DNA of 64,000 nt, from assembly GCF_041053105.1 (NCBI RefSeq), contig NZ_CP163444.1, forward strand, positions 5,394,001-5,458,000, given 5' to 3'. Shown here piece after piece: positions 117 to 18,088 of this stretch (position 1 is its first letter; each line of letters begins with the position of its first letter). The DNA comes from Streptomyces sp. R44. Lineage in GTDB: Bacteria; Actinomycetota; Actinomycetes; Streptomycetales; Streptomycetaceae. A program made the translations under genes and the position numbers. Under the pieces are notes generated by a model. The model searched no databases, was not told the origin of the DNA, and saw nothing but the letters and a program-made list of their open reading frames with translations.

Positions 117-271
117 GGCATGCCCTTCATCTCGGTGCCCCAACTGGGCGATCAAATCCTCTAATGGACTACTGATCAGATGGAAGCGGACTTCACGGTC
201 GGCTTATTAGGAATACTTTCTGAGCATCGGATTGACGGATCATCAAATGGCGTAAAGGTGAAGGAGTGGCC

Positions 272-1924
272 ATGGCAGCTGCGTACCGGAGAACATCGAG
301 AAGATGGCTGGGGGTGTTCACCGCCGGTCTCCTCGCCACGGGCTCAGTCGTGCTCGCGTCCCCCGCCCACGCCACCGAATCCACGACGCCGAAAGACCCG
401 GTACCCACCCTCGCCACCGCCATGGGGGCCTTCCTCGACTCGGGCGACCGCGGGGTCGCCCGCATCGGGCAGCTCCAGCGGTGGCTCGGCGGCCACGAAC
501 TCCGTGTCGGCCACACCTACCTGCCCGGCGACCTCTGGAAGAACATCGAGGGACCCCCCGGCTTCCTCGACGCCTGGGCCGACTGGCGCAACGAGCGCAC
601 CGACCGCATGCTCGTCCTCAACGTCCCTATGCTGGAGCGCAACGAGGCCCGCGTCTCCGACCGCGAGGTCCGCCGCCAACTCCAGCTCGGCGCCGCCGGC
701 TACTTCGACCACCACTTCACGACCCTCGCCGAACGCCTCGTCGAGGAGGGGGCCCGCGACACCGTCATCGTCCTCGGCTGGGAGATGAACGGCACCACCT
801 ACACCCACCGGTGCGCCCCCGACCCCGTCGCGTGGAAGAAGTACTGGAACCGCATCGTCACCGCGATGCGTGCCGTGCCGGGCCAGAAGTTCCGCTTCGA
901 CTTCAACCCGAGCCGTGGCCTCGACGCGATTCCGTGGACCGAGTGCTACCCGGGCGACGACGTCGTCGACATCATCGGCATGGATTCGTACGACCAGCCG
1001 TCGGGGAGCAGTTTCGACCGGCACGTCAGCGAACCGTACGGGCTCCAGAAGCAGGTCGATTTCGCCGCCGAACACGGAAAGCAGATCTCCTATCCCGAAT
1101 GGGGGCTCTTCCGGAACGGCGACAACCCGGAATACATGCGGCGCATGCTGGACTGGATGAAGCAGCACAAGCCGCTGTACCACACCATCACCGACTACTG
1201 TCCGCACGGCGTCTGGCAGTGCGACGACAACCCGCAGTCGTCGCTGGTGTTCCGGCAGGCGCTGTACGGCACGGAACCGGAACTCCCGACGGATCCGGTG
1301 GACCCGACGGACCCGGTCGACCCGACGGATCCGGTGGACCCGACTGATCCGACTGATCCGACGATCCCGGAACCGAAGCCTGAACCGAAGCCGGAACCCA
1401 AGCCGGAACCGAAGCCGGAACCGAAGCCGGAGCCGAAGCCTGAGCCGAAGCCTGAGCCGAAGCCTGAGCCGAAGCCTGAGCCGAAGCCTGAGCCCAAGCC
1501 GGAACCGAAGCCGGAACCGAAGCCGGAACCGAAGCCGGAGCCGAAGCCGGAACCGAAGCCGGAGCCGAAGCCGGAGCCGAAGCCTGAGCCCAAGCCGGAA
1601 CCGAAGCCCGAGCCGAAGCCCGAGCCGAAGCCCGAGCCGAAGCCTGAGCCGAAGCCTGAGCCCAAGCCGGAACCGAAGCCGGAACCGAAGCCCGAGCCGA
1701 AGCCCGAGCCGAAGCCCGAGCCGAAGCCCGAGCCCAAGCCGGAACCGAAGCCCGAGCCGAAGCCGGAACCGAAGCCCGAGCCGAAGCCCGACTGCTGGAC
1801 CCTGGACCTCGGTTCATGGGTGGAGCACTGGCTCGGTGGGTCCGTCTGTGTCCCGGAGAGCAACTGGAAGGACGACGTCGACCTCGACTGGAAGGACAGC
1901 CTGAAGGAGGTCTGGCCCTTCTGA
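272..1924 (+). CDS. Secreted GH26-type endo-mannanase-like glycosidase with PEPK spacer and Trp/Cys C-terminal module
   Basis: The product is 550 aa. I chose ATG 272 over the in-frame GTG at 266 because AAGGAG (261-266) sits five bases before it and would overlap the GTG. Residues 1-34 form a signal peptide (Arg-rich start, AHA cleavage). Residues about 45-335 are a GH26-like beta/alpha barrel: GWEMNG carries the likely acid/base Glu171 and SYPEWGLF the likely nucleophile Glu276. A (TDPVDP)n linker follows, then 35 perfect PEPK tetrapeptides (residues about 366-505) and a 44-residue tail rich in Trp and acidic residues with two Cys. There is no LPXTG motif or C-terminal membrane helix. The enzyme is exported and probably cuts a beta-mannan or the polysaccharide made by the facing operon. 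A close paralogue without spacer and tail lies at 19811. The GH26 family is assigned from motifs; substrate is inference. Confidence 0.82.
1367..1786 (+). repeat. Tandem 12-bp repeat encoding (PEPK)35
   Basis: Exactly 420 bp, or 35 in-frame copies of a 12-bp unit of the form CCGGARCCGAAG, with third-position variation (CCT/CCC/CCG, GAA/GAG) arranged in blocks that suggest recent slippage. It encodes an alternating Glu/Lys polyproline rod, of the kind that spans cell walls. The minus-strand frames across it (GSGFGSGF and similar) are artefacts of the repeat. Confidence 0.95.
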
Positions 1925-12558: not shown

Positions 12559-12940
12559 ACAGGTTCTCCGCTTTGATGAGAGAAGGGAGGGAAGACCCGA
12601 GTAGGCCGGGGGAGAAGAAGGTGTCGTCCGCACGAAATGGGTGAACGCGCGGCGGGCCCGGAAGCAACGTTCGGGAACGTTATAACCCCGATGCGGGGCG
12701 ATAGTAAGCATTAGATGCCCGGAAACGCTAACTCCCGTATCCGCGCGGCCGGTTCCTCGTTGTGCGTGTTGCGCCATTCCACGCCCAGTCCCTCCAATGG
12801 CCCTCTTATGGCCCAAAGATCGGTTGAACGTCACCCGTTCGGGAGAGCAACCGATGAAAAGCCGGGGCGTTGTTGAGGGAGCCGGGCCGAACAGTCCGCG
12901 CAGTCCGAGTTGGATGAATTCGATCGAGGAGCACCTCCCC
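12559..12940. promoter_or_regulatory. Divergent intergenic region between the polysaccharide operon and the first chaplin
   Basis: No gene is seen in these 382 bases. On the minus strand GTTATAAC (12679-12686) could hold a -10 hexamer, with two AACGTT boxes at 12666-12671 and 12676-12681, exactly one helical turn apart, overlapping the expected start of transcription. That would leave a leader of about 110 nt before ATG 12558. On the plus strand a sigma-BldN-like promoter is listed separately at 12829. The strand and hexamer assignments are inference from sequence alone. Confidence 0.4.
12829..12857 (+). promoter_or_regulatory. Possible sigma-BldN-type promoter for the first chaplin
   Basis: CGTCAC (12829-12834), a 17-base spacer, then CGATGA (12852-12857). 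As I recall, sigma-BldN promoters have -35 near CGTAAC and -10 near CGTTGA with about 16 bases between. Each hexamer here differs by one base and the spacer is one longer. Chaplins are known BldN targets, and the better copy upstream of the second chaplin (16805) supports the reading. Confidence 0.4.
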
Positions 12941-13180
12941 ATGTCCCGTATCGCCAAGGCCGTTGTCCTGACCGTAGGTGCCGCCGCCGCCGTCGCCGGT
13001 ACCGCCGGTGCCGCCTCCGCCGACGCCGGCGCCGAGGCTGCGGCCGTGAAGTCCCCCGGTGTCATCTCCGGCAACGTCGTCCAGGTTCCGGTCCACGTGC
13101 CGATCAACCTCTGCGGCAACACCGTCAGCGTCATCGGCGCGCTGAACCCGACCTTCGGCAACACCTGCATCAACGCCTGA
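12941..13180 (+). CDS. Short chaplin (ChpH-like)
   Basis: The product is 79 aa from ATG 12941, with GAGGAG nine bases upstream. A signal peptide ends near residue 28 (AGAASADA). The mature protein is one chaplin domain (PF03777): SPGVISGNVVQVPVHVPINL, CGNTVSVIGALNPTFGNTC, INA. The two Cys of the domain are present, so it belongs to the disulfide-forming short chaplins rather than the ChpE type. Secreted chaplins assemble into amyloid-like fibres that coat aerial hyphae and spores. Terminated by the strong hairpin at 13207. Confidence 0.95.
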   Translation: MSRIAKAVVLTVGAAAAVAGTAGAASADAGAEAAAVKSPGVISGNVVQVPVHVPINLCGNTVSVIGALNPTFGNTCINA

Positions 13181-13206
13181 TCTCGCACGCCTGATCGGTC
13201 CTTCCG

Positions 13207-13250
13207 AAGCCGGTGCGCCCACCCCGCCGGGGTGGGCGCACCGGCTTTTT
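13207..13250 (+). terminator. Rho-independent terminator after the first chaplin
   Basis: A long perfect stem (AAGCCGGTGCGCCCACCCC paired with its complement) with a four-base loop is followed by TTTTT. It lies 26 bases after the chaplin stop. Confidence 0.9.
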
Positions 13251-13456
13251 CCTTGCCGGCACTGGTCCGGTCCTCGTTCGGACGCACCCTCGTGCGCCGT
13301 TCGGTGCAACGGCGTACGCCCCTCAGGGGGACAGGCCGCGAGGGTGGATTCACTCGAACGGAGGCGTGGCGCTCAGTAGTTCTGCGGTTGCGGAGGGCTA
13401 TACCCGCAGGCACCGTGAGAGAGCAGTTGTCCGACGCATAAGGAAAAGGAACATAT

Positions 13457-14383
13457 ATGCGTCCCCTGGCTACACGCCGCCTCACCGCCCTGGCGATATC
13501 CGCCGCCATCACCCTCGGCACGGCGGGACCCGCCTTCGCCGGCGAACACCACCCGTCCACCGCGGCCGACCGGGCCGCCCACGCGCCCCTCCCCGACGCC
13601 GCCGCCCTCCTGGCCCAGGCCGAAGCGCTCGGCGACCTCGGTTCGGTGACCACTCCCGTGACCGAACTCGTCACGGCCGCGCTCAAGGCCGACTCCGGCC
13701 AGCTGTCCGCCGCCGACGTCGAGTCCCTCAAGAGCAAGATCGCCGCGGCGGTCGACCAGGCGAAGGCCACGGTCCAGGCCCCGCTCCCGGACACCCCGGC
13801 GACCCCGCCGGCGGCCGATCTGCCCGTGACCCTCCCGGTCACGCCGCCGGCCGCGGACCTCCCGGTGAAACCGCCGGCCGCGGACACCCCGGTGAAACCG
13901 CCCGCGGCCGACCTTCCGGTCACCCCGCCCACGTCCGACCTGCCGGTGAAGCCGCCCGCGGCCGACCTTCCGGTGAAGCCGCCCGCCGCCGAGCTCCCCG
14001 CCACGCCCCCGGCGGCCGACCTTCCGGTGAAGCCGCCCGCCACGCTGCCCGTCGCGGCCGACGCGGCGGCCCTCGCGGACGGCAAGGCCGCGCCCGCGGA
14101 CGTCGTGTCCGACGCGCTCGCGAGCGTCGAGAAGGCCGTCGCCGGACTGCTCGCCGCCGTCACCTCCGGGGACGCCGGCGGAGTCGTACCGCAGGTCACC
14201 TCGACCCTGACCTCGCTGGTCAACCTGGCCGTCGCCACCGTGCTCGGCAGTGGGCTGCCCGCACCGGACCTGCCCGGTCTGCCCAAGCTCCCGGCGCTCC
14301 CGGTCACCGCGCCCGAGCTGCCCGTCGACCCGCCGGTCGCCGCGCCCGAGCTGCCGGTCAAGCCCCCGCTCCCCCTCGGGTAG
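13457..14383 (+). CDS. Secreted Pro/Ala repeat protein of the chaplin island
   Basis: The product is 308 aa from ATG 13457, with AGGAAAAGGA upstream. A signal peptide ends near residue 29 (GPAFAGEH). The mature protein has a helical Ala-rich part (residues about 40-105), a repeat region (about 112-200) built from units like PPAADLPVKPPAADTPV, a second helical part with ALASVEKAVAGLLAAV, and a C-terminal LPxLPxLPVTAPELPV stretch. There is no Cys and no LPXTG motif. I do not recognise a functional family. The composition and position between chaplins suggest a wall or sheath-associated structural protein. The shadow frames over this repeat (PPPAR, GRSAAGG) are not genes. Confidence 0.75.
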   Translation: MRPLATRRLTALAISAAITLGTAGPAFAGEHHPSTAADRAAHAPLPDAAALLAQAEALGDLGSVTTPVTELVTAALKADSGQLSAADVESLKSKIAAAVDQAKATVQAPLPDTPATPPAADLPVTLPVTPPAADLPVKPPAADTPVKPPAADLPVTPPTSDLPVKPPAADLPVKPPAAELPATPPAADLPVKPPATLPVAADAAALADGKAAPADVVSDALASVEKAVAGLLAAVTSGDAGGVVPQVTSTLTSLVNLAVATVLGSGLPAPDLPGLPKLPALPVTAPELPVDPPVAAPELPVKPPLPLG

Positions 14384-14395
14384 CACCCGCGCACC

Positions 14396-14427
14396 TGTGC
14401 CGGTCCGGCGTCCGCCGGACCGGCACA
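14396..14427. terminator. Hairpin after the Pro/Ala repeat gene
   Basis: A stem of TGTGCCGGTCCGGC with its complement and a short loop starts 13 bases after the stop. No T-run follows, so termination is likely but not certain. Confidence 0.6.
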
Positions 14428-14539
14428 GACGTGTGCGATCGGCAAATCACACCGGCCCGCATCGATCGGGTGCAGTACCGAGAAATCCCTCCTCCCGGAG
14501 TTTCCGGGGCGCTCACTCCTCGTTACAGAAGCAGAACGA

Positions 14540-14569
14540 TGTACAGGATTCGGCCAAGAACCCTGTACA
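14540..14569 (+). promoter_or_regulatory. Inverted repeat TGTACAGG-N14-CCTGTACA upstream of a secreted protein gene
   Basis: A perfect 8+8 bp inverted repeat with a 14-base spacer (14540-14547 and 14562-14569) ends 37 bases before ATG 14607. It could be an operator or an RNA hairpin in the leader. No known regulator with this exact site is recognised. Confidence 0.5.
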
Positions 14570-14606
14570 GAACGTGACTTGAAAGCACAGAGGAAGGATT
14601 CACTCC

Positions 14607-14882
14607 ATGAAGCCCACCAAGGTCGCCGCGGTCGTCGCCGGTTCCCTCATGGCCCTGGGTGCCGCCGCGCCCGCCATGGCCCAGGAGGCGCTGACCCCCA
14701 CCAGCCTGAACGGTGGCCTCGAAGCGATCGCCGCCAACGGGCTGAAGAGCGACATGCTGAGCAGCACCACGGACGGCTCCCCGGTCCAGACCGTGACGAA
14801 GGCGGCGGACCAGCTGAACACCGCCACCAAGGGCGCCCCGCTGCTCGGTGGCCTCCCGGTCCCCGGCGGTCTGGGCGGCTGA
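14607..14882 (+). CDS. Small secreted protein of the chaplin island
   Basis: The product is 91 aa from ATG 14607, with GAGGAAGG upstream. A signal peptide of about 25 residues (APAMA|QEA) leaves a mature peptide of about 66 residues without Cys that ends in GAPLLGGLPVPGGLGG. I recall similar Streptomyces secreted peptides with an LLGGLP-type Gly/Pro/Leu end, sometimes mislabelled as ATP-binding proteins; no biochemical role is known to me. Probably a wall or aerial-sheath component given its neighbours. Expression may be controlled through the inverted repeat at 14540. Confidence 0.75.
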   Translation: MKPTKVAAVVAGSLMALGAAAPAMAQEALTPTSLNGGLEAIAANGLKSDMLSSTTDGSPVQTVTKAADQLNTATKGAPLLGGLPVPGGLGG

Positions 14883-14950
14883 CGGCACCTCAGCACCACT
14901 GCCCCCACGGGCATTTACGGCGGTCTCCGTGCCGCTGTTCCTCACGGTCG

Positions 14951-14976
14951 GCTGATCGAATGATTTTCTGATCAGC
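14951..14976. terminator. Weak hairpin after the small secreted gene
   Basis: GCTGATC (14951-14957) pairs with GATCAGC (14970-14976) across a T-rich 12-base loop. The stem is only 7 bp, so the role as a terminator is uncertain. Confidence 0.3.
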
Positions 14977-15115
14977 TGCCGTGTGGCCCCGGCGGCACGC
15001 CGGGCGCCGACCCATACCCTCTGGCCGATCCCTCGTGAACTTCGGTGTGGATCAGGCCGGTCGGAGCGAGGGGGGATCCTCGCCGGTCTCTCCCTTTATC
15101 CAGAGGAAGAGCGGT

Positions 15116-15955
15116 ATGCGGTCCATCATCAGCAGGAAAGTACTCACCGCGGCGGCAGCGACCGGCATCCTGTCGCTGAGCGGCGGATTCGCCCTGGCCG
15201 CGAACGCCCACGCCGGTACGGGCGACGGGCCCGGACCGGGCGTGGCCGGGCATGTCCAGGCCCCCCTCCCGGCCGACGTGTGCGGCAAGAGCATGGAACT
15301 CGGCGGCTTCGTCGCGGAAGCCGTCGGCGACCTCTGCGACCAGGCGGAGGAACCCGGCGGCTACGGCGAGGAGCCGGGTCCCACGCATCCGCCCCACACG
15401 ACGCCGCCGACGCACACCAAGCCCCCCACGCACACGACGCCGCCGACGCACACCAAGCCCCCCACGCACACGACGCCTCCCACCCACACGACGCCGCCGA
15501 CGCACACCACCCCTCCCACGCACACCACACCTCCCACCCACACCACCCCGCCGACCCACACGAAGCCCCCCACGCACACCAAGCCCCCCACCCACCCGGG
15601 CCCCGGTGACTGCGACGAGGACTCGGGTTACGGGTACGGGTGCGAGGGCCCCACGAGTCCGCCGAGCTCGACGCCCCCCACGCACACCACCCCTCCCACC
15701 CACACCACCCCGCCCACGCACCCGGGCCCCGGTGACTGTGACGAGGACTCGGGGTACGGCTGCGAGGGGCCGACGGACCACCCGCCCACGGACCACCCCT
15801 CGTCGCCCGGCCACCCCGGCCACCCGGGACACCCCCAGCTCCCCGAGACCGGTAGCGAGCCCATGCTCATGGGCGCCGCCGCCGTCAGCGCCGCCCTGAT
15901 CATCGGCGGCACCGTCGTCCACCTCCGCGGTGGACGCATCGCCCGCCGGCACTGA
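15116..15955 (+). CDS. LPETG-anchored surface protein with a divergent chaplin-like module and PPTHT repeats
   Basis: The product is 279 aa from ATG 15116, preceded by AGAGGAAGAG. A signal peptide ends near residue 33. Residues about 40-75 read PGVAGHVQAPLPADVCG and KSMELGGFVAEAVGDLC: the Cys-Cys spacing (18 residues) and the Gly, Ala and PGVA-G-VQ positions match the chaplin domain of the neighbouring chaplins. A wall-spanning region of about 18 PPTHT/PPTHP units follows, interrupted by two CDEDSGY-GCEGPT inserts. The C-terminus has LPETG, a membrane helix (AAAVSAALIIGGTVV) and a basic tail, the sortase signal. Long chaplins use LAXTG, so the LPETG variant is notable. Likely covalently fixed to peptidoglycan. 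Confidence 0.85.
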   Translation: MRSIISRKVLTAAAATGILSLSGGFALAANAHAGTGDGPGPGVAGHVQAPLPADVCGKSMELGGFVAEAVGDLCDQAEEPGGYGEEPGPTHPPHTTPPTHTKPPTHTTPPTHTKPPTHTTPPTHTTPPTHTTPPTHTTPPTHTTPPTHTKPPTHTKPPTHPGPGDCDEDSGYGYGCEGPTSPPSSTPPTHTTPPTHTTPPTHPGPGDCDEDSGYGCEGPTDHPPTDHPSSPGHPGHPGHPQLPETGSEPMLMGAAAVSAALIIGGTVVHLRGGRIARRH

Positions 15956-15980
15956 TCCCGCGGTCGAGCACCGCGTCAAC

Positions 15981-16012
15981 CAGGGCCCTCGCCTTCACCG
16001 GTGAGGGCCCTG
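15981..16012 (+). terminator. Terminator-like hairpin after the LPETG gene
   Basis: Perfect 10-bp stem CAGGGCCCTC / GAGGGCCCTG around a 12-base loop that can extend the stem. It lies 25 bases after the stop, without a long T-run. Confidence 0.65.
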
Positions 16013-16072
16013 CGCGTTAGTGCACATGGGTTAGTCCCGCGACGTTTCGGCCAAGGGGCTCGTTCTCCTCGT

Positions 16073-16585
16073 ATGACTCTGCGTTCTCACGCGGGCATGG
16101 GACTCCTCATGACCGCATTCGCCTCCGCCGCCCTGGCCTCCCCCGCCGCCGCCGTCGAGGCGCCGGTGATCGTCCCGCTCCAGGGCCTCGATCCGGTCCT
16201 GCCGATGGACGCGCCGACGGTGGCGACCGGCGTTCCCGTACCGATGCCCGGCGCGCCCACCGGCTTCCAGAAGGGCCTCGGCGCGCTCCCGGACGTCGCC
16301 CTGCCCAGCGTCCCGCTCACCGGCACCCTGCCGGAGACCGTCGTCGACGCGCCGCTGCCCGAGCTCCTCAAGGGCAGCGAGCCCGGCCATGCCCTGCTGA
16401 GCAGCCCGCACCGGGAGATGAAGGCGGCCACCCCCGGCGCCGTCGTCGGCAACCCGCTGGAGGCCCCCCGCGGCAACGGCCTCGAAGCCATTCCCGACCT
16501 GACGGAACCCCAGGTCGGTCTGCTCACCCCGGTGCTCAGCGGGGCCCTCGACCCCCAGCTGGGTCTGGCGCCGAACGCGGGCTGA
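16073..16585 (+). CDS. Small secreted protein of the chaplin island
   Basis: The product is 170 aa from ATG 16073. A signal peptide covers about 28 residues (ASAALASPAAAVEA). The mature chain is rich in Pro, Leu and Val (LQGLDPVLPMDAPTV, ALPDVALPSVPL) and has no Cys and no anchor. It shares the phrase NGLEAI with the secreted protein at 14607 (NGGLEAI), which is weak evidence of kinship. I recognise no domain. The Shine-Dalgarno is poor and distant, so the exact start is less certain. Confidence 0.65.
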   Translation: MTLRSHAGMGLLMTAFASAALASPAAAVEAPVIVPLQGLDPVLPMDAPTVATGVPVPMPGAPTGFQKGLGALPDVALPSVPLTGTLPETVVDAPLPELLKGSEPGHALLSSPHREMKAATPGAVVGNPLEAPRGNGLEAIPDLTEPQVGLLTPVLSGALDPQLGLAPNAG

Positions 16586-16887
16586 CGCGAGCACCGTCCC
16601 CCGTTCATTCGTACGATCGTTGACCGGGCGGGTGAAGACACGATTCTTCCCCGCCACCCCAAGGGATGTCGGTCGTTGCAAGAGAAGGCTTGTCGCATGG
16701 CCGAGGCCCGCGGGCCGAAGGCGTTCCGTCGTATCCGGCGGCGGACGGCATTCGGGCCGCGGGCCATTTCTTCGATTTTCCTTCTTCTCGTTCGGCCCAA
16801 TGGCCGTGACCCGGAACGGGGAACGGCGTTGAACGGGAGTGACGGCCGTGATTCCTGCGGTCGCTTTCCACGTCCAAGGAGTTCTTG
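16586..16887 (+). promoter_or_regulatory. Intergenic region upstream of the second chaplin
   Basis: These 302 bases hold no convincing gene; short frames here lack signal peptides and coding character. The informative part is the promoter-like sequence listed at 16805. The remainder is unusually AT-richer than its surroundings around 16765-16800 (TTTCTTCGATTTTCCTTC), which may help promoter opening. Confidence 0.45.
16805..16832 (+). promoter_or_regulatory. Sigma-BldN-like promoter for the second chaplin
   Basis: CGTGAC (16805-16810), exactly 16 bases, then CGTTGA (16827-16832). This matches the sigma-BldN consensus as I recall it (CGTAAC-N16-CGTTGA) in 11 of 12 positions. The start codon is 55 bases downstream. 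BldN control of chaplins is established in Streptomyces. Confidence 0.6.
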
Positions 16888-17160
16888 ATGTCTCGCATCG
16901 CGAAGGCTGCCGCTGTTCTCGCCGGCACGGGTGCCGTTGCCCTCAGCGGAGCCGGCCTGGCCGTCGCCGACTCGGGCGCCGAGGCCGTCGCCGCCCACTC
17001 TCCCGGTGTCGCCTCCGGCAACGTCGTCCAGGTCCCGGTCCACGTGCCGGTCAACCTCTGCGGCAACACCGTCAACGTCATCGGGCTGCTGAACCCGGCG
17101 TTCGGCAACACCTGCATCAACGCCGACGGTGGCCACGACGACGGCGGCTACGGCGGCTGA
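16888..17160 (+). CDS. Short chaplin with Asp/His/Gly-rich tail
   Basis: The product is 90 aa from ATG 16888 (AAGGAG six bases upstream). A signal peptide ends near residue 28 (GLAVADSG). The chaplin domain is SPGVASGNVVQVPVHVPVNL then CGNTVNVIGLLNPAFGNTC, nearly identical to that at 12941, with both Cys. Unlike usual short chaplins, which stop a few residues after the last Cys, this one continues with DGGHDDGGYGG, an 11-residue hydrophilic tail. It should be a secreted aerial-sheath fibre subunit. Followed by a very strong hairpin at 17171. Confidence 0.94.
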   Translation: MSRIAKAAAVLAGTGAVALSGAGLAVADSGAEAVAAHSPGVASGNVVQVPVHVPVNLCGNTVNVIGLLNPAFGNTCINADGGHDDGGYGG

Positions 17161-17170
17161 TCCCCCGCTT

Positions 17171-17215
17171 CACACGGATGTCCCCCCGGCCGTCGGCCGG
17201 GGGGACATCCGTGTG
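17171..17215. terminator. 21-bp perfect hairpin between convergent chaplin and melC2
   Basis: The arms 17171-17191 and 17195-17215 are perfectly complementary over 21 bp with a 3-base loop (GTC). It begins 10 bases after the chaplin stop and ends 7 bases before the melC2 stop codon, so it probably terminates both convergent transcripts. Confidence 0.85.
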
Positions 17216-17221
17216 TGGGGG

Positions 17222-18088
17222 TCAGGCGTACCGGTAGATCCGGCTGTGGTCGAACATCGACGCCGGGGTCACGCCCCAGGGCGCCATCGGCTCGTGCCGG
17301 GCGGCGACCTTGCGGTACTGGGAGTCCCCCAGGGGCGGCGGTTCCGCCGGCAGATAGCCGGCGCCGGGGTTCCGCTGCTGCCAGCGCGACCAGACCAGGT
17401 CGACGAAGGAGTGGTGCAGCCAGAAGACCGGGTCGTTCACGGAGCCGCCGCCGAGCATCAGACCGCCGACCCAGCGGTGCACCCGGTTGTGCAGCCGGAA
17501 CCGCTCGTTGCCCCGGCCCGGCGCCCAGCCCTCCAAGGCGTTGCGGAAGCCGCTCGCGCTCGTCGAGTTCCAGGGGGCCGCGTCGTACACCCGCTCGCGC
17601 ATCACCGCGTCCAGCTGGGCCGGGGTGGGGAGCGTGATCGGGTCGCGAGGACGGCCGAAGTCCCTGGTCAGATAGCGGACGTCGGTCATCGACTGGGTGA
17701 TCGTCCACCGTCCCGTGGCGTGCGCGAACGGGCCCGTCATCACCTGGAGGTCGGCGCGGCGGCCGTTGCCGCCCATGAAGTCCTCGCGCCAGATCGAGGA
17801 CGCCGGCGAATTGTCCCGGGTCCAGTCCCAGTACGGGACGGAGACCGTCGGGTCGATCCGGCGCAGGGCCGTCTCGAAGTCGAGCAGGAACTTGCGGTGC
17901 CAGGGCAGGAAGCTCGGGGTCATGTGGGCGATCCGGAGCCGGCCGCCCCCGTCGGCCGTGTAGTAGTCGATGTGGGTGCGGACGAAGCGGTCGTACGCAC
18001 CGGTGCGCTTGAGCTCCAGGACGGCGGCGACGAACTTGCGGCGCTCGGCGCCGGTCAGATCGCGCTGGTTCTTACGCGTGTACACCAC
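17222..18088 (-). CDS. melC2: Tyrosinase, copper monooxygenase
   Basis: The product is 288 aa from GTG 18088; a second GTG directly follows and gives the classical numbering (His38, 54, 63). GGGAGGGAG lies upstream. All six copper ligands are visible: CuA in RTHIDYY, RIAHMTPSFLPWHRKF; CuB in RLHNRVHRW and FWLHHSFVD. It hydroxylates monophenols and oxidises o-diphenols to quinones, giving melanin. MelC2 has no signal of its own and is exported with MelC1, whose gene overlaps this start by 17 bases. The CuB pair is shifted by about 10 residues against the reference Streptomyces enzymes because of insertions before it. Confidence 0.95.
   Translation of the reverse strand: MVYTRKNQRDLTGAERRKFVAAVLELKRTGAYDRFVRTHIDYYTADGGGRLRIAHMTPSFLPWHRKFLLDFETALRRIDPTVSVPYWDWTRDNSPASSIWREDFMGGNGRRADLQVMTGPFAHATGRWTITQSMTDVRYLTRDFGRPRDPITLPTPAQLDAVMRERVYDAAPWNSTSASGFRNALEGWAPGRGNERFRLHNRVHRWVGGLMLGGGSVNDPVFWLHHSFVDLVWSRWQQRNPGAGYLPAEPPPLGDSQYRKVAARHEPMAPWGVTPASMFDHSRIYRYA

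Follow-up and report, generated by a model that had tools for sequence, protein, structure and literature searches.

How the chaplin sheath is attached to the hyphal wall is, to our knowledge, not settled. A locus of Streptomyces sp. R44 raises this question in a particular form: what is the role of a protein that carries a chaplin-like module near its N-terminus, ends in an LPETG sorting signal and is encoded between two chaplin genes? The original prediction for this locus suggested that the protein could act in the wall as a receptor or nucleator and capture chaplin fibers through a matching fold. Analysis of the 64-kb stretch of DNA that holds the gene (the window) and of related loci points to a different answer. 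It appears probable from the sequence comparisons that, in one Streptomyces clade, a long chaplin with a single module was put to a new use, its module having become an acidic loop that is closed by a disulphide, is probably non-amyloid and sits on a stalk anchored in the wall. The protein is referred to here as chaplin-derived, and not as a chaplin, because the features that define a chaplin fail in it.

Layout of the stalk protein

The chaplin-derived LPXTG-type stalk protein has 279 aa and is encoded on the + strand by an open reading frame that runs from an ATG at 15116 to a TGA at 15955 (15116..15955) and is preceded by GAGGAAGAG. Its parts follow one another on the same strand. The signal peptide, MRSIISRKVLTAAAATGILSLSGGFALAA (residues 1-29, with a presumed cleavage site; 15116..15202), is strongly kept across the family, and its N-terminal start resembles that of long chaplins. 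The module consists of an N-terminal arm, PGVAGHVQAPLPADV (residues 41-55; 15236..15280), which is shortened compared with chaplins and reads GH at the first GN turn, and a Cys loop, CGKSMELGGFVAEAVGDLC (residues 56-74; 15281..15337), with a Cys step of 18 residues. The stalk (15338..15838) is rich in Pro, Thr and His, with PPTHT repeats and two acidic inserts that each contain a Cys pair (CDEDSGYGYGC and CDEDSGYGC). Stalk length ranges from 60 to 270 residues in the 27 complete family members, the stalk start being fixed at residue 60 for two members without the Cys.

The sorting signal (15839..15952) begins with LPETG (residues 242-246), which is followed by a hydrophobic segment and the basic tail RGGRIARRH. 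The protein scored 10.1 bits with Pfam Gram_pos_anchor and 11.8 with TIGR01167, both below the cut-offs. With its signal peptide, LPXTG motif, hydrophobic segment and basic end, the sequence has all the parts of a sortase-anchored layout, and LPxTG is present in 27 of the 27 readable members. Judged by these motifs, the protein would be exported, and a sortase would link it to peptidoglycan via LPETG. There are 12 sortase matches in the genome of Streptomyces sp. R44, and the class E sortases of S. coelicolor are described as selecting LAXTG (PMC5148588). The LPETG signal had been set apart from the LAXTG of long chaplins. It is indeed present, but an LPXTG signal also occurs outside the divergent form: LPHTG ends two single-domain long chaplins (loci are labeled L and genomes G), namely L024, whose chaplin domain is intact, and L019, whose domain is nearly so, with GD at the second turn.

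Distribution and gene order

A protein search returned eight relatives. Seven are named hypothetical, uncharacterized or LPXTG anchor and one is nameless; among the matches listed, none carries a chaplin name. Likewise, no description of such a protein was found in the open-licence literature, among the matches listed. Within the genus, at least 8 of 199 genomes carry the family among the matches listed, loci L013-L042 (G000, G004, G015, G076, G143, G149, G162, and G185). The remaining matches in L013-L042 are long chaplins that resemble the family in signal peptide and linker; two of them, L031 and L032, are without a chaplin domain.

Scanning named genome contigs yielded 37 loci. The set of 33 sequences used below was obtained by leaving out L111-L113 (two-domain long chaplins), L115 (another family) and L109, which is truncated at 36 aa, and by adding the window protein. 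L109 was counted for synteny and upstream elements only, which brings these counts to 34 loci. Four sequences (L090, L096, L104, and L105) stop at a contig end, 36 residues in the stalk of L108 are masked or unknown, and L092 and L110 appear frameshifted. L026 (G149) is a diverged extra copy that lies elsewhere, with a Cys step of 17, no common neighbors and a frame lost downstream. L107, whose record bears the title Microtetraspora glauca NRRL B-3735, has the same Streptomyces locus, perhaps because the strain was misnamed. L115 encodes, from 8001 onwards, an LAETG-anchored protein whose chaplin-like module, PVNVCGSIGGLDPIQELTAGC, is eroded in another way; this protein falls outside the stalk-protein family.

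As predicted, the stalk gene lies between two true chaplins. The upstream short chaplin (12941..13180, +; start inferred, scanned as 12857-13180) scores 95.4 bits with the chaplin profile PF03777, and the downstream short chaplin (16888..17160, +) scores 98.5 bits; a tyrosinase gene lies beyond the latter. The proposed survey of chaplin neighbors gave a uniform result. A chaplin is found upstream of the family gene in 34 of 34 loci, window included, and a chaplin and tyrosinase are found downstream in 29 of the 29 loci that are long enough. This conserved order could reflect a working link with the sheath, which speaks against the reading preferred here. Together with the chaplin homology of the module, it counts in favor of a possible receptor or nucleator, in which the module would dock short chaplins and start fibers at the wall through a matching fold or mixed disulphides.

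Three more apparently secreted proteins (308, 91, and 170 aa) are encoded between both chaplins. The one encoded at 13457-14383 (+), between the upstream chaplin and the stalk gene, is Pro-rich with ADLPV(K/T)PPA repeats and no Pfam match, and is unmatched in 9 of 34 loci (L083, L089, L102-L106, L110, and L114). The 91-aa protein encoded at 14607-14882 (+) belongs to no family, shows 84-90% identity in six syntenic loci and is matched in 33 of 34 loci, the exception being L106. The third (16073-16585, +), between the stalk gene and the downstream chaplin, has no known family either and has no match in L103 and L110 despite contigs of sufficient length. Near the left edge of the window, 266-1924 (+) encodes a 552-aa open reading frame with a long PEPK repeat. 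About 2.5 kb ahead of the window start, at L063 4263-5458, another true chaplin stands beside a gene that we take to be rodlin-like; the ORF list shows no long chaplin beside this pair. An Rfam scan gave no match above a gathering score, and a mir-278 match at 17164-17223, below its gathering score, was taken as a chance hairpin match.

Homology of the module to the chaplin domain

The loop CGKSMELGGFVAEAVGDLC and the chaplin sequence CGNTVNVIGLLNPAFGNTC have the same Cys, Gly2, Gly9, Ala14, Gly16 and second Cys at an 18-residue step, which bears out the alignment with the neighboring chaplins that had been proposed. The PF03777 match covers residues 29-74 and begins at the end of the signal peptide. 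Against a cut-off of 21, hmmscan gave 18.5 bits for the full stalk protein and 20.3 bits for its first 86 aa. When all six frames of the whole genome were searched, the module scored 21.5 bits and ranked 10 of 12, behind nine true chaplin domains. A syntenic orthologue, L084, scored 34.9 bits and is thus clearly above the cut-off. Ten relatives were scanned with PF03777; besides L084, four scored below 21 bits and five had no match. At E 0.1 or better, 16 of 32 members matched, including the window protein, and the other 16 did not.

A module-only profile was also compared with a chaplin profile by hhalign. The input consisted of 15 family modules without the signal peptide and 54 true chaplin domains; L026 was left out for its 17 step, its non-syntenic position and the frame lost downstream. 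The comparison gave a probability of 88% and a score of 27.9 over 38 columns with 26% identity. None of 600 shuffles matched this score: 300 rounds of column shuffling gave at most 15.5, and another 300 in which the Cys kept their places gave at most 18.0. The original prediction, which was to fall if the profile gave no significant match, thus withstands the check, with 18.5-21.5 bits and 0/600 shuffles.

Could the module nonetheless be unrelated to chaplins and resemble their loop by chance or convergence? The window protein alone stays just below the Pfam cut-off, the identity is low at 26% over 38 columns, and 16 of 32 members have no PF03777 match at E 0.1. However, the shuffles, the 34.9 bits of L084, the same architecture, a similar signal peptide and the chaplin neighbors all argue for common descent and make a chance likeness very improbable. 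Homology of the module to the chaplin domain is well supported, though half of the members are too distant for the Pfam model. The claim that an LPETG-anchored protein carries a divergent chaplin module is therefore upheld by the profile match, by L084 and by the conserved synteny.

Conservation of the loop and loss of the turns

Of the 33 family sequences, 31 retain both Cys. The 18-residue step is seen in 25 of 33; four sequences have a step of 17, and single sequences have steps of 15 and 13. L110 has the 18 step despite a frame change upstream. L108 and L114 have lost the loop with both Cys and retain the signal peptide, the stalk and LPDTG. The expectation that Cys spacing would be conserved in orthologues therefore holds for most of the family but not for 8 of 33 sequences, two of which are without the pair.

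Three GN motifs at the turns are given as a hallmark of chaplins (PMC13251363). In the window protein these turns read GH, GK and GD, so that none of the three is GN. None of the 33 sequences has GN at the second turn, and one of them (L110) has it at the third, with the loop-less pair counted as absent. At the first turn, GN is clear in L084 only; eight others have a GN nearby whose register is unsure. Two chaplin domains in the same genome, L007 and L009, are without Cys and keep GN, and thus form a mirror image of the stalk-protein module.

The loop has conserved features of its own. Counting the first Cys as 0, position 5 is Asp or Glu in 26 of 32 and position 16 is Asp in 27 of 32, where chaplins have Asn. 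Cys56, Gly63, Gly71, Leu73 and Cys74 are conserved at 91-94% in 32 family sequences, and the family's own consensus (LG, AVGDLC) is retained. This conservation together with the Asp/Glu changes suggests that the loop is under its own constraint and not in plain decay. Loop positions shared with chaplins are somewhat more conserved than the rest (p 0.04), but this difference disappears when the Cys are excluded (p 0.18).

How does the chemistry of the module compare with that of chaplins, whose domain spans 40 residues and is hydrophobic and beta-prone? Chou-Fasman beta propensity was 0.90-0.96 in 11 modules and 0.98-1.15 in 54 true chaplins, without overlap, and acidic residues numbered 2-6 per module (n=11) and 0-3 in the 54 chaplins, a set that favors canonical chaplins because it was gathered by a pattern requiring GN turns. 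The window module has a beta propensity of 0.96 and a net charge of -4. Its GRAVY of 0.32 lies inside the chaplin range of 0.15-0.96, and AGGRESCAN averages overlap too, so beta propensity and acidity alone separate the modules from chaplins. The Chou-Fasman, hydropathy and AGGRESCAN averages are to be taken as provisional. The claim that hydrophobic beta-forming residues are partly replaced by acidic ones fits the acidity and beta propensity, but overall hydropathy overlaps that of chaplins. AlphaFold models were too poor to read, both for the module (pLDDT 54, helices only) and for a true chaplin modeled with nine sequences (pLDDT 45, short helix and hairpin); there is at most a hint that the module may be helical rather than beta as in the hairpin of the true chaplin. 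A sequence search of solved structures with the true chaplin as query gave no match.

These results bear directly on the receptor or nucleator. Besides homology and gene order, this model can draw on the Cys pair in 31 of 33 sequences, on the proposal of Sawyer et al. 2011 that intermolecular disulphides act as nuclei (PMC3079736) and on a statement that long chaplins promote the assembly of short chaplins (PMC13293333). However, all 33 sequences are without the second GN turn and 32 of them without the third, the module is acidic with lower beta propensity, and the loop is missing in 2 of 33 and slips in length in 6 others. Nucleation by a matching fold, as originally proposed, is partly contradicted, for the parts presumed to define the fold (the GN turns and the arm) are those that changed. 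A receptor or nucleator is therefore quite unlikely, and the upstream elements of the gene count against it as well.

Upstream elements

The consensus for sigma-BldN is CGTAAC-N16-CGTTGA (PMC2375139), and chaplin and rodlin genes of S. venezuelae are reported to be driven by this sigma factor (PMC4125116, PMC4255298). A relaxed pattern, CGTNAC-N15-18-CG(T/A)TGA, has two matches in the window, one ahead of each flanking chaplin: CGTCAC-N17-CGATGA (12829..12857, +) upstream and CGTGAC-N16-CGTTGA (16805..16832, +) downstream. Among related loci, 22 of the 32 upstream chaplins and 26 of the 28 downstream ones are preceded by it; these counts are not independent because the pattern was widened after the two chaplin promoters had been seen. 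The narrower CGTNAC-N16-CGTTGA occurs four times in the 8.9-Mb genome, including the site of the downstream chaplin, as against one match for a reversed-pattern control. Upstream of the stalk-protein genes, the relaxed pattern was found in 0 of 34 loci, which argues against a receptor or nucleator; the pattern is likewise missing from ten of the 32 upstream chaplins and from two of the 28 downstream ones.

The stalk gene is preceded by an element of a different kind. The sequence TGATCGAATGATTTTCTGATC (14953..14973, +) lies within a GCTGATC-N12-GATCAGC inverted repeat, occurs once in the genome and, with up to 3 mismatches, is found no more than 300 bp from the start in 34 of 34 loci. It may be an operator, part of a promoter or a terminator. 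A terminator-like match at 14945-14958 overlaps it, at no more than chance level. No sigma-70-type promoter was found in 12600-17300, and the stalk gene may be transcribed from an upstream gene. This difference from the upstream elements of the neighboring chaplins is consistent with the preferred reading of a wall-anchored stalk in a new use.

Rates of change and origin

In the family, the signal peptide had a dN/dS of 0.19 (dN 0.04), the module one of 0.48 (dN 0.25) and the sorting signal one of 0.29 (dN 0.14). L110 and L092 were dropped from these rows for their lost frames, and for the module L108 and L114 also, as they have no Cys pair. The flanking true chaplin domains gave dN/dS of 0.54 (n 32) and 0.37 (n 28), with dN of 0.09 and 0.05 and low dS. 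Relaxed selection on the module had been expected beforehand, but its dN/dS of 0.48 is not set apart from those of the flanking chaplins and shows no relaxation, because dS is also low in the flanking chaplins. In absolute terms, the module changes faster than they do.

Is the module then a relic that decays without function, with selection acting on the wall-anchored stalk alone? The loss of the loop in L108 and L114, which keep stalk and LPDTG, together with a comparable loss in L031 and L032, fits this explanation, and so does the higher dN of the module (0.25, against 0.14 for the sorting signal and 0.04 for the signal peptide). However, a module dN/dS below 1, both Cys in 31 of 33 sequences and the retention of a consensus of its own argue for continued constraint. 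Simple decay is thus unlikely. The same losses agree with the preferred reading, an acidic loop in a new use on an anchored stalk, in that stalk and anchor outlast the module in L108 and L114 and, in another chaplin slot, in L031 and L032.

A tree of signal peptide plus sorting signal recovered the family as one clade (100/100). It was built from 70 columns and 51 rows, each from the stalk-protein family or of long-chaplin type, and 25 of its 45 inner branches are open. The family and the one-domain group with LRQTL may or may not form a single clade (AU p 0.455). Other genomes of the genus encode long chaplins that have one chaplin domain, a Pro/Thr linker and an LPHTG, LAQTG, LAETG or MAETG signal. 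L031 and L032 encode a signal peptide, a PPT stalk and LPPTG beside a short chaplin; their chaplin domain is lost, and they have neighbor genes in common with single-domain long-chaplin loci. Anchored stalk proteins have probably lost the chaplin module more than once.

Possible role at the hyphal surface

On the preferred reading, the extended stalk would hold a small acidic loop, closed by a disulphide that its Cys motif suggests, at the hyphal surface. The loop would not polymerize into the chaplin sheath, because the turns are lost and beta propensity is lower. The protein would take part in the surface coat as a hydrophilic stalk layer or as a contact module under or beside the sheath.

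A further model would make the protein a wall-fixed thiol dock. A loop without amyloid turns, carrying its Cys pair on a stalk, would form mixed disulphides with short chaplins and thereby create sites that tie the sheath to the wall, while long chaplins of several lineages would have become plain wall stalks. This model as a whole is speculative and improbable. Docking by disulphide exchange in itself is conceivable because the Cys are kept and because Cys of ChpH is reported as required in vivo although fibers arise in vitro without disulphides (PMC3079736).

What can be gained from such a family? The loci provide a natural series from intact through divergent to missing module with a like stalk and anchor, which would allow the role of the module to be told apart from that of the anchored stalk. 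A further type is also useful because ChpA-C are described as the only functionally characterized sortase-dependent surface proteins of Streptomyces known to the authors of PMC13293333.

Comparison with known systems

Sortase-anchored surface proteins outside Streptomyces offer partial likenesses. CwpA and CwpB of Actinoplanes missouriensis have been compared with long chaplins, and CwpB resembles the stalk protein in that two Cys are kept without surrounding GN motifs (PMC13251363). According to their authors, CwpA and CwpB have no chaplin domain; they are SrtE-dependent and have hydrophobic properties like those of long chaplins (PMC13251363). SspA of A. missouriensis, a spore-surface protein with a sortase signal and predicted disorder, can be set beside the stalk protein by its description; its authors report no conserved domain besides the sorting signal (PMC13293333).

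The long chaplins ChpA-C have PF03777 domains and a class E sorting signal. They share with the stalk protein the type of signal peptide, an N-terminal chaplin-family module, a long linker and a C-terminal sortase signal, and their genes likewise lie in a chaplin gene region. However, ChpA-C have two chaplin domains and LAXTG, whereas the stalk protein has one module and LPETG. Unlike ChpA-C, the stalk protein has lost the second and third GN turns, is acidic and has no detected sigma-BldN-type site. The single-domain long chaplins L019, L024, L025, L030, L034, and L038 resemble it in having one module, a sorting signal and an adjacent short chaplin, and their linkers often contain Gly-Tyr-Gly, as in the stalk protein. 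They differ from it in that their chaplin domain is intact or nearly so and in that they occupy another chaplin slot.
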